Shown: positions 46,417 through 56,294 of the stretch, piece after piece
How positions within the stretch are numbered: the stretch's first letter is position 1
How the letters are laid out: each line of letters opens with the position of its first letter
NCBI RefSeq assembly: GCF_020731355.1
Contig: NZ_JAJFZK010000008.1
Location: forward strand, 124,001 to 188,000
Reading direction: 5' to 3'
DNA length: 64,000 nt
DNA from: Bacillus sp. REN16
GTDB lineage: Bacteria; Bacillota; Bacilli; Bacillales; Bacillaceae_L
The notes under the pieces: generated by a model
Databases searched by the model: none
Told to the model about the DNA's origin: nothing
The model's input: only the letters and a program-made list of their open reading frames with translations
Position numbers and translations under genes: made by a program

Positions 46417-46422
46417 CTTTTT

Positions 46423-46512
46423 ATGGTCAATAAATAAAATTTATAGCTGATATCCTAAGTTTATAGCCAATAATTTAAAAATATGGCTAATAATAAAAGT
46501 TTATGGCTATTA
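46423..46512. repeat. Phased 20-bp repeat array II (five units)
   Basis: Decamers ATGGTCAATA, ATAGCTGATA, ATAGCCAATA, ATGGCTAATA and ATGGCTATTA start at 46423, 46443, 46463, 46483 and 46503, again exactly 20 bases apart. They match the core of array I and also follow a terminator. The array ends 35 bases before the HssR box. Confidence 0.85.
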
Positions 46513-52821: not shown

Positions 52822-54873
52822 TTGAGCGATGAGCGTAAGGTGAATAGAAATCGTAAAGATGAACAGTTGGATCAATTCAGGGTAGATGATCGAGGGAAAA
52901 AGCTTACAACAAATCAAGGGCTTAAGGTATCGAATGATGAATTTTCTTTAAAAGCGGGGGTACGTGGCCCTACGATAATGGAGGATTTTCATTTTCGTGA
53001 AAAAATGACGCATTTTGATCATGAACGAATTCCAGAGCGGGTTGTTCATGCTCGTGGTTTTGCGGCATTTGGTGATTTCCAGGTGTATGACAATAGCATG
53101 AAGAAGTATACAAGAGCAAAATTCTTACAGAATCCAACTGTAAAGACACCTGTTTTTGTTCGGTTTTCAACAGTCGTAGGTTCACGCGGATCCGCAGATA
53201 CAGTTCGTGATGTGAGGGGGTTTGCAACCAAGTTTTATACAGAAGAAGGAAACTATGATTTGGTGAGTAACAATATCCCAATCTTTTTTATCCAGGATGC
53301 GATTAAATTTCCGGACATGGTCCACGCAATCAAACCAGAGCCAAATAACGAGATTCCCCAAGCATCCTCTGCCCATGACACATTTTGGGATTTTGTCGCA
53401 AATAACCAAGAAACTGCCCATATGATCATGTGGCTGATGTCAGACCGGGCGATACCAAGAAGCTTCCGGATGATGGATGGTTTCGGGGTTCACACTTTCC
53501 GTCTGGTCAATGAGGAAGGCAAATCACACTTTGTTAAGTTCCATTGGAGATCAACGCTTGGCGCACATTCCCTTGTGTGGGATGAAGCACAAAAAATTGC
53601 CGGAAAGGATCCTGACTTCCACCGCCGAGACTTATGGGAAAACATTGAGAAAGGGAATTTTCCAGAATTTGAATTAGGTGTCCAAATTCTTGCTCAAGAA
53701 GATGAGTTTAAATTTGATTTTGATATTTTAGATGCCACAAAAATATGGCCTGAGGAAGATATTCCAGTAAAAATCATTGGAAAGATGACATTAAATCGGA
53801 ATGTGGACAATGCATTTACTGAAATAGAACAAGTTGCTTTTCATCCGGGACACGTGGTGCCGGGGATCGATTTTACGAATGACCCATTATTGCAAGGGCG
53901 TTTGTTTTCATACACAGATACCCAATTAATCCGTCTTGGTGGACCAAACTTTCACGAAATCCCAATTAATCGGCCAGTATGTCCATTCCATAATAATCAG
54001 CGTGATGGCTATCACCGGCAAACAATTAATGTCGGCAATGTGAGCTATAACAAGAATTCATTAGCGGGGAATACACCAGCACCAGCAAGTGTTGAAGAAG
54101 GTGGGTTTGCACATTATCAAGAAAAGGTTGAAGGACGAAAAGTCCAAGCAAGAAGTGAAAGCTTTAAGGACTTTTTCACACAAGCAACTCTTTTCTGGAA
54201 TAGCATGAGTCAACCTGAAAAAGAGCATATCCAGGCTGCTTTTCAATTTGAGTTGGGTAAAGTTCAGAGTAAATCCGTTCAACAGCAAGTGGTAGACATG
54301 TTTGCGAATGTTAATCTTGGATTGGCGACCGATATAGCGAATTATCTAGGTGTGAACCCGCCAAAAGGTGGTGGATCAAACATAAAAAAATCCTCTCCTG
54401 CACTTAGTCAGCTCAACACAAAATTCAGCCCAAAAACTAGAAAAGTTGCAGTCATTCTGACAGATGGTTTTAATGGACCAGATGTAAAAAATATACTTAA
54501 AGACTTGAAAGCGAATGGAATACAACCTGAAATCATTAGTGAAAAGTTAGGATCAATTAAGGGCACGGATGGTACCGAGCTTAAGGTGGACCACACCTTT
54601 TTAACATCTGAATCGGTATTATTTGATGGAGTACTGATGGTGAGAGGAAGTAGAAAAAGCAAGAAGTTTAATAAGGATGCAGCACACTTTATCTATGAAG
54701 CCTACACACATTATAAGCCAATTGGAGCAATCGGAGAAGGGAAAAAGTGGCTCGAGGTTAATCACATTGAAAGCGCTCCGGGTGTGATTTTTTCTGACGA
54801 TAAGGGGCAATTTGAAAAGGAATTTACTAATGCAGTAAAACAGCATCGGTTCTGGCAGCGTGAAATAGATTAG
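52822..54873 (+). CDS. katE: Large-subunit catalase (KatE/HPII type)
   Basis: This heme catalase of 683 residues is clade 2, that is, the standard core of about 500 residues plus a C-terminal flavodoxin-like/GATase1-like domain of about 145 residues (starts near [20 protein letters not shown]). Catalytic His is in [13 protein letters not shown], Asn in [11 protein letters not shown], and the heme Tyr in [15 protein letters not shown]. It dismutates H2O2. Start TTG follows GGAGGAGG. In Bacillus the homologous enzyme is made in spores and the general stress response; no promoter is claimed here. The 53-bp hairpin repeats begin 20 bases after the stop. Confidence 0.95.
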
Positions 54874-54895: not shown

Positions 54896-55147
54896 CGGTA
54901 TACCAACTTCTTAAAATCAACTAGTTGGTATACCGCAAAAGAGCCTAGCGGTATATCAACCGCACCAAATCTACTAGTTGATATACCGCAAAAGGGCCTA
55001 GCGGTATATTAACCGCACCAAATCTACTAGTTGATATACCGCAAAAGAGCATAGAGGTATATCAACCGCACCAAATCTACTAGGTGATATACCGCAAAAG
55101 AGCCTAGAGGTATATCAACCGCACCAAATCAACTAGTTGATATACCG
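54896..55147. repeat. 53-bp tandem repeat encoding five phased hairpins
   Basis: Five stems start at 54896, 54949, 55002, 55055 and 55108, exactly 53 bases apart. Each pairs CGGTATATCAAC with GTTGATATACCG around a 16-base loop (CGCACCAAATCTACTA in most copies), and 13 conserved bases (CAAAAGAGCCTAG) separate the hairpins. In copy 1 the stem is CGGTATACCAAC with GTTGGTATACCG, a paired change that keeps the stem perfect. The repeat fills the gap between katE and the convergent racemase gene. Confidence 0.92.
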
Positions 55148-55178
55148 AGAAAGAGTATACCGATTACCGTCCCACTTT

Positions 55179-56294
55179 TTATTCATGATTGTGAAACGTC
55201 TCACTATACAACATAAAATCCTCAATTTTATCCCTGTTCGGTTCAAAGCCAATACCTGGCCCCTTTGGAACCTCAATATATCCATCCGTCATCGTAACCT
55301 CTGGGGTAATAATATCTTCTTTCCAATAATGAGCGGAGGGGGCAGTATCTCCAGGTAACGTGAAGTTTGCCAGACTCGTGATAGCGATATTATGTGCTCG
55401 GCCAACACCTGCTTCAAGCATGCCACCACACCACATTGGGATATTGTTCCTTTCACACAGCTCATGAATCTTTAACGATTCAGTAATACCACCAACTCGA
55501 CCGATTTTTAGATTGATGATTTTGCCACTCCCGATCTCGATTGCTTTCCGAACATCTTCTGCTGTGTGAATGCACTCATCCAAGCAAATTGATGTATTCA
55601 ACTCTTTTTGCAATCTCGCATGATCAATCAAATCATCATAGGCAAAAGGCTGCTCGACCATCATGAGATTGAACTCATCCAATTGTTTAAGGTATGGAAT
55701 ATCATCAATGGTGTACGCACAATTTGCATCCGCCATCAGCGGAATATCAGAAAATTCTCTGCGAATCGCTTTTAAAATAGTCATATCCCAACCTGGCATA
55801 ATTTTAACCTTAATGCGTTTGTAGCCATTCGTTACAAAGCCCTCAATTTTTTGAAGTAATTCTTTTTCAGTCTTTTGAATCCCAACACTTACCCCAACTT
55901 CAATTTTCTCTTTTACACCGCCAATAGCTTTAGCCAATGAAATACCTTTTTCCTTCGCATACAGGTCCCAAATTGCTCCATCTAAAGCGGCCTTTGCATT
56001 ATAGTTTCCGCGTAAATCCTTGAAGGCTTTCGATACATCATCAGGGTGCCCGATTTCTGTTTTCATAAGCTTTGGAATTAAAATATCCTTTAACATATGC
56101 CAATTCGTTTTAACCGTTTCCTCGTGATAAATAGGGATGGCATCAGAGACGGTTTCCGCCCAACCTGAGATACCGCTTTTCGATTTTACCTCCACCAAAA
56201 TAAAGTCTTTATCTGTTAGTGTTCCAACACTTGTTTTAAAAGGGGTGAGCAATTGCATTCTCATATATCGCAAAACAATACTTTTAACTTCCAT
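55179..56294 (-). CDS. N-acylamino acid racemase / o-succinylbenzoate synthase family enzyme
   Basis: This enolase-superfamily enzyme of 371 residues has two catalytic lysines in GYKRIKVKIMPG (KxK, second barrel strand) and NLKIGRVGG. The metal ligands lie in PLMADANCAY (Asp), MVEQPFAYDD (Glu) and CLDECIHT (Asp). This is the NSAR/OSBS (MenC2) group, which can racemise N-succinylamino acids or make o-succinylbenzoate. No men genes are near. The next gene upstream encodes a GNAT acyltransferase, the pairing known from the N-succinyl D-amino acid conversion pathway, so racemase is the better reading. Confidence 0.87.
   Translation of the reverse strand: MEVKSIVLRYMRMQLLTPFKTSVGTLTDKDFILVEVKSKSGISGWAETVSDAIPIYHEETVKTNWHMLKDILIPKLMKTEIGHPDDVSKAFKDLRGNYNAKAALDGAIWDLYAKEKGISLAKAIGGVKEKIEVGVSVGIQKTEKELLQKIEGFVTNGYKRIKVKIMPGWDMTILKAIRREFSDIPLMADANCAYTIDDIPYLKQLDEFNLMMVEQPFAYDDLIDHARLQKELNTSICLDECIHTAEDVRKAIEIGSGKIINLKIGRVGGITESLKIHELCERNNIPMWCGGMLEAGVGRAHNIAITSLANFTLPGDTAPSAHYWKEDIITPEVTMTDGYIEVPKGPGIGFEPNRDKIEDFMLYSETFHNHE

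Follow-up and report, generated by a model that had tools for sequence, protein, structure and literature searches.

The gap between katE and a menC-like gene of Bacillus sp. REN16 contains a tandem array of five 53-bp units, and our analysis identifies this array as a member of the "constant 52-nt" repeat class of Bacillus. Throughout its sequence family, which we call GGTATA after its half-site, conservation is mainly of sequence and not of pairing. We tentatively propose, as a possibility that falls somewhat short of probable, that the katE array acts as DNA, supplying polar, helix-phased sites for a putative DNA-binding protein at operon ends. The features of the locus, numbered within the window (the whole stretch of 64,000 nucleotides that was analysed), are the following.

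54896..55147, + strand: five-unit tandem array of period 53 bp, running in the direction of katE
54897..54934, + strand: copy 1, GGTATACCA - 20 bp - TGGTATACC (unit scan)
54950..54987, + strand: copy 2, GGTATATCA - 20 bp - TGATATACC (38-bp motif search)
55003..55040, + strand: copy 3, stem with a wobble pair (GGTATATTA) (38-bp motif search)
55056..55093, + strand: copy 4, one stem mismatch (38-bp motif search, RNA folding)
55109..55146, + strand: copy 5, stem of 11 bp (38-bp motif search, RNA folding)
52822..54873, + strand: katE, catalase of HPII type, 3' end towards the array (NCBIfam NF008422, 1035.7 bits, below the cut-off of 1102)
55179..56294, - strand: menC-like gene, o-succinylbenzoate synthase, 3' end towards the array (NCBIfam TIGR01928, 376 bits, cut-off 200.65)

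The two genes are convergent and the array sits between their stop codons, starting 22 bp past that of katE and leaving about 31 bp to where the menC-like gene ends; among open reading frames of at least 60 aa, just one, of 73 aa, reaches the end of the array, by its first bases. Tandem Repeats Finder (TRF) reports a single 53-bp array in the window (54914-55155, 4.6 copies, 92% matches), and all four start-to-start intervals measure 53 bp, in agreement with the strict 53-base interval after katE described in the initial annotation. A search for the 38-bp hairpin motif with up to three mismatches returned four matches in the window, corresponding to copies 2-5, where 0.00 were expected. The unit consensus reads GGTATAnCA, 20 bp, TGnTATACC, 15 bp. 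Stems of 12 bp, which had been attributed to all five copies, are found in copies 1-3, with the wobble in copy 3; that of copy 5 spans 11 bp, and copy 4 forms a shorter stem of 9 bp, a mismatch and one further pair. The katE array is more symmetrical than the rest of the family, with all nine arm positions paired in four of its five units. The array stretch folds as RNA far better than shuffled sequences on both strands (z -10.2 and -7.4), a score that any tandem palindrome will yield. Rfam gave no match at E <=1 between 54700 and 55400, and two scans detected no intrinsic terminator near the array or between katE and the array.

The unit recurs well beyond this locus. A DNA search of 60 genomes matched six of the nine genomes of the genus, that of REN16 included, and none of the 51 outside it; a paired half-site pattern matched seven of the nine, again including REN16, and its reversed control had no matches. 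From these matches we assembled 231 units at 41 loci, comprising the window and 40 further loci among the matches listed; the genus has other arrays. The unit scan admitted spacers of 19-22 bp, and nearly all units among the matches listed for a wider pattern of 14-22 bp have a spacer of exactly 20. The 20-bp spacer together with a full linker is present in 213 of the 231 units, and consecutive intervals are mostly 53 bp, with a few of 52, 54 or 55; larger or half-phase gaps are missed or mis-phased units. Most arrays of the family also carry a fixed asymmetric motif, AAACGATAA ... CGCAA, of which the AAACGATAA part is missing from the katE array. Copy number varies among apparently orthologous loci (8.4 in L108, 4.1 in L117 and 7.1 in L127). 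The REN16 genome hosts the GGTATA family, a GGTAACG family and two more unrelated ones, and in five loci (L106, L107, L132, L139 and L140) unrelated families of period 52/53 (GGTAACG...CGTNCC and others) adjoin GGTATA arrays in the same gap, as if such intergenic gaps collected arrays of several families. Palindromes of the form GGGACAGG...CTGTCCC were seen near the array in L131 and L136 (and in L004), in L136 along with a tandem repeat of period 46.

This collection of units allows the role of pairing to be assessed directly. The initial annotation had argued that pairing is kept as sequence changes, on the grounds that copy 1 has C-G in place of T-A at both sides of one pair and copy 3 a wobble; both changes are present. 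We counted pairs for the two hairpins that a unit can form, with either the spacer or the linker as loop, and shuffled partners within arrays and globally. At arm position 7 a Watson-Crick pair occurs in 78 of 231 units, as compared with 77.6 +/- 4.0 in within-array shuffles, and in the other hairpin in 66 of 179, as compared with 65.8 +/- 3.1. Positions 8 and 9 vary without compensation as well (186 vs 184.7; 168 vs 170.9), and positions 1-6 are almost invariant and therefore test little. One hairpin has its nine pairs all intact in 38 of 231 units, the other in 36 of 179. Global shuffles, which ignore the kinship of units within one array, leave a modest excess at position 7 (78 vs 65.1, reached by 18 in 1000; for the other hairpin 66 vs 50.4, reached by 3 in 1000). 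The left and right letters of this position thus covary between arrays and not among the units of one array, an excess that shared unit ancestry or a preference for symmetrical sites could explain, and a weak pairing constraint may act there.

Deviation from the array consensus was scored per unit on 177 units from arrays of at least four, after exclusion of the 18 among the 231 in which the 20-bp spacer or the full linker was not present. It amounts to 0.044 in the arm core (where positions 8 and 9 deviate most, at 0.16-0.17), whereas position 7 and its mirror average 0.223, the spacer 0.094 and the linker 0.142. Position 7, then, changes more than the unpaired spacer and linker, and at that position this corresponds to the outcome that the initial annotation had itself named as refuting its reading. 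Eight of the nine AAACGATAA columns, which lie in the loop, deviate at 0.00-0.04. Given the absence of within-array compensation and these near-invariant unpaired columns, it is mainly sequence, rather than pairing, that is conserved. A structured 3' UTR kept by covariation was accordingly rejected on the 231 units, with the excess over global shuffles standing beside that result, and the argument for a structured katE 3' RNA, which consisted of one compensatory change, finds no support in the larger set. More generally, the case illustrates how little a single compensatory pair among five copies says in favour of a conserved RNA stem.

The second line of evidence concerns the period. A first census took in 464 kb of the REN16 genome, the window being part of it, together with 960 kb of family-level and 240 kb of order-level sequence and the surroundings of katE in 80 records (792 kb), and was replicated on 800 kb of new stretches, keeping the range of 43-60 bp that had been picked after the first census. 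Arrays judged to be coding, which included single cases of period 45, 51 and 52, were left out. All 33 noncoding arrays of period 43-60 in these 3.26 Mb of related sequence fall at 51-53 bp, 24 of 24 in the first census (the katE array included) and nine of nine in the replication. Their units make up 20 sequence families at 58% identity, the maximum of 400 shuffled comparisons being 55%, and in 15 of the first 24 units the inverted repeat was unmatched by any of 30 shuffles. Noncoding arrays of two other size ranges also turned up in the census, 19-22 bp and, in a few cases, 39-42 bp; as a sanity check, 200 kb of E. coli contained no array of 51-53 bp. Across the 33 units, A/T content oscillates most strongly at 10.4 bp, the fifth harmonic (0.094 vs 0.046 in intergenic sequence; z 5.8, 0/1000), and with one unit per family the z score becomes 3.4 or 4.6, depending on the unit chosen. 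The AA/TT measure gives a weaker fifth harmonic (z 3.1), equalled by the seventh (z 3.2), and 30 units of 19-22 bp present a like A/T signal at their second harmonic (5/1000). The katE-array unit is almost devoid of the 10.4-bp harmonic (fifth-harmonic power 0.020), and a further GGTATA unit, C16 of genome G005, is dominated by the seventh (0.466) and lacks the 10.4-bp oscillation; hence, the helical signature is claimed for the class and not for the GGTATA family.

Arrays of this kind have been described by Subirana and Messeguer (2021; PMC8161180), who report Bacillus repeats with a constant length of 52 or 20-21 nt and variable sequence, catalogue 1886 repeats of 51-53 nt and 781 of 20-21 nt, state that the 52-nt repeats are transcribed in B. 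coagulans and, finding no obvious function, call them enigmatic and propose nucleoid stabilisation or small RNA. The katE array agrees with that class in having units of 51-53 nt with at least 60% of one length (here 4/4 intervals of 53 bp), at least four repeats in noncoding DNA (here five units between two stop codons), several families per genome with genus-specific sequence (here 6/9 genomes of the genus and 0/51 outside), and signature motifs accompanied by their reverse (here the inverted GGTATAnCA half-sites). The likeness thus extends to length, noncoding location, several families per genome and species-specific sequence, and also to a 20-21 nt sibling (PMC8161180). An intergenic 20-bp tandem repeat of 4.5 copies at 46420-46509 of the window fits this sibling class. 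Three of our census families carry motifs given in Table 2 of that paper, namely AAAgGGAAT, AAAGCTGTC and the B. alkalitelluris motif AATCATAG; the GGTATA family is absent from its Table 1, which gives main families only (PMC8161180). In the portions of the text of PMC8161180 consulted, gyrase, terminators, orientation and a 10.4-bp harmonic go unmentioned and rRNA appears only in a reference title; relative to that text, the rRNA-operon position, the direction shared with the upstream unit and the 10.4-bp harmonic of the class seem to be new. These three properties provide handles on a binding protein and on the role of helical phase.

With regard to position, 11 of the 41 GGTATA arrays (among the matches listed) lie behind an rRNA operon, and two more probably do. 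Rfam places a 5S rRNA upstream in the same gap for seven of them (L102, L121, L122, L124, L125, L139 and L140), other repeat families intervening between 5S and array in L139 and L140; the 5S 3' end was recognised by eye at four further contig ends (L105, L109, L113 and L118). The two probable cases, L115 and L132, show by eye an rRNA-type terminator alone, preceded in L132 by other sequence. A co-oriented terminator-like hairpin stands 30-80 bp before 16 of the 41 arrays and 111-138 bp before five more, the katE array not being among either group. Apart from rRNA, the upstream genes include elongation factor P, named above its cut-off, and relatives of superoxide dismutase, pyruvate-dehydrogenase acyltransferase and glycerol-3-phosphate oxidase; in one set of ten queries the family search left two unnamed. 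Among another 40 regions that follow a 5S gene in the genus, family or order, hand-picked from the 5S matches listed, four contain an array of 51-52 bp (L191, L194, L208 and L211), where about 0.8 would be expected at a density of 33 per 3.26 Mb. Arrays are therefore not found behind every rRNA operon. Behind 5S in genome G016, L215 (496-1419) and L217 (667-1178) hold tandem units that are nearly identical, 149 and 161 bp long (TRF), with a consensus resembling tRNA-gene sequence.

Gene context was tallied for the 25 arrays with both flanks called, a flank being missing at a contig end in the other 16 of 41, and compared by Fisher test with 540 intergenic gaps of at least 150 bp in random stretches. 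Convergent gaps are over-represented (9/25 vs 72/540, P 0.005) and divergent ones under-represented (1/25 vs 136/540, P 0.015), with 15/25 tandem vs 332/540. The 51-53 class taken as a whole shows no significant bias (convergent 6/25, P 0.14; divergent 4/25, P 0.35). Direction was scored on spacer and linker columns, leaving the scored locus out of the profile; L139 was dropped by the unit filter and arrays without one clear upstream unit were left unscored. Of the 27 GGTATA arrays that could be scored, 26 are oriented like the unit upstream of them, a figure that grouping by flanks turns into about 20 of 21, since orthologous loci are not independent. The agreement comprises 12 of 12 rRNA loci (L115 and L132 included) and 14 of 15 tandem loci, the exception being L137. 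The array of L137 (3108-3542) follows a dihydrouridine-synthase-like gene, and a second array following such a gene, in L133, is likewise opposite to it. GC3 skew on the + strand of the window is positive in eight of eight bins, and in seven convergent loci unit direction coincides with the skew guess in five, these skews being weak and also tracking gene direction. Polarity with respect to transcription is here inseparable from leading-strand polarity.

From the anatomy, spacing, position and polarity of the units we infer a protein that would act on them as follows. Each 53-bp unit would offer two inverted GGTATAnCA half-sites, joined in most arrays by the asymmetric motif; a spacing of five helical turns would bring all units to the same face of the helix, where a putative sequence-specific protein might bind them cooperatively. 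The bound array would then form a directional, topologically stiff block just past operon 3' ends, above all those of rRNA operons, able to absorb or restrain supercoils and read-through coming from the upstream unit. In the window, where the array runs in the direction of katE, it would presumably act for the katE side. This reading is favoured by the fixed spacing, the lack of within-array compensation, the conserved unpaired motif, the position behind rRNA operons and terminators, the convergent excess and divergent deficit of gene context, and the polarity, and the presence of a 51-53 bp period in every unrelated family supports a phased DNA array. It is weakened by the pooled position-7 pairs exceeding global shuffles, by the katE-array and G005 C16 units lacking the 10.4-bp oscillation, by three other katE-bearing genomes of the genus having no GGTATA array at that place and by the lack of a significant context bias in the whole class; polarity with transcription, too, is expected of an RNA element and in this respect counts against it. 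Among the readings offered in the initial annotation (structured 3' RNA, protein-binding comb, slippage from a palindrome) the comb fits best, and its interpretation as a whole is partly supported.

The alternatives differ in what they leave unaccounted for. A neutral or selfish satellite that does nothing for the cell, takes its unit length from the copying machinery, and spreads and shrinks through unequal exchange or slippage where gaps are free of genes would agree with the variable copy number of apparently orthologous loci, the lineage-specific katE array and the several unrelated families found side by side. We nevertheless deem it fairly unlikely, since 26 of 27 arrays run with their upstream unit, arrays are concentrated behind rRNA operons and columns within arrays are nearly invariant; furthermore, we know of no copying mechanism with a 52-bp ruler, and slippage from a palindrome leaves unexplained the period common to 20 unrelated families. 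Tandem hairpins that protect or regulate RNA, located in the katE 3' UTR, in read-through transcripts or in small RNAs, would explain the strong predicted folding, the direction shared with the upstream unit, the lack of a detected terminator between katE and the array and the modest position-7 excess over global shuffles, and they would be in line with the transcription stated for the B. coagulans repeats (PMC8161180). An RNA element is nonetheless improbable to our mind: compensation within arrays is absent, stem position 7 is more variable than the loops, Rfam returned no match at E <=1, a co-oriented terminator-like hairpin precedes 16 of the 41 arrays by 30-80 bp, and a period of five DNA turns has no evident reason in an RNA.

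A landing site for gyrase or supercoils, in which arrays of five-turn phased bendability downstream of highly transcribed operons attract gyrase or pin plectonemes, much as BIME-2 elements do in E. coli, and sequence matters only through bending, is a rival worth weighing for the class, given that E. coli gyrase sites share both a variation of about 10 bp and an enrichment downstream of rRNA operons. The E. coli motif shows GC variation with a period of 10.75 bp in two flanks, and fragments of 35-52 bp are presumed to wrap around the C-terminal domain of GyrA (PMC6379681); plectonemes are pinned by intrinsic curvature (PMC6301789). The 10.4-bp peak in class A/T content fits well with this, and an oscillation of GC content at about 10 bp, as in E. 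coli, is present in the class average. It is not seen in the katE-array unit, however, and the near-absence of the fifth harmonic there, the dominant seventh of G005 C16, the weaker AA/TT signal with its equal seventh harmonic and the strict GGTATA motif, which points to a sequence-reading protein, make gyrase an unlikely explanation. The BIME-2/REP elements bound by gyrase in E. coli are likewise intergenic palindromic repeats (PMC6379681), but REPs are palindromes of 20-40 bp (PMC3733652), unlike the strict 52-bp tandem described here. GTAG/CGTC-tagged REP elements and their RAYT (Y1) transposases were also considered and rejected: they too are palindromic, repeated and intergenic, but no cognate flanked Y1 transposase emerged, the 20 Y1_Tnp loci of the genus each showing at most one exact half-site within flanks of 1.5 kb, and the distributions do not match, G003 having arrays and no Y1_Tnp match and G006 a Y1_Tnp and no pattern match.

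Returning to protein-bound DNA arrays, eukaryotic rRNA genes have arrays of terminator and fork-barrier sites behind them. There, too, polar sites for proteins are repeated directly downstream of the genes, and by analogy only, it is conceivable, if decidedly improbable, that the bacterial arrays are their counterpart, a polar, helix-phased comb directly past rRNA operons and other operon ends that stops read-through polymerase or controls replication forks. Were this so, the five-turn unit common to the whole 52-nt class would reflect the footprint rule of a single architectural system whose site sequences evolve fast in each genus.

The history of the locus itself can be followed through katE, which is found at 75% identity or more in four of the nine genomes of the genus (REN16, G005, G004 and G006). 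No GGTATA array follows katE in the other three, within about 560 bp inspected in each, and the katE array is for this reason lineage-specific, that is, a gain, or a retained copy, in the lineage of REN16. By eye, a menC-like gene adjoins katE only in G005 among those three, with a different duplicated repeat between them (L312). The closest katE outside these nine genomes belongs to two Fredinandcohnia onubensis records (87-88% identity), which makes Fredinandcohnia the probable genus; neither record has a 51-53 array at the katE locus; both carry in the katE 3' gap a different duplicated repeat, of two copies and period 154 (TRF), at 6144-6444 in L021 and 6147-6438 in L022. In Heyndrickxia coagulans 36D1 (L076, 6234-6751), an unrelated 52-bp array of ten units begins 182 bp past the called end of katE.
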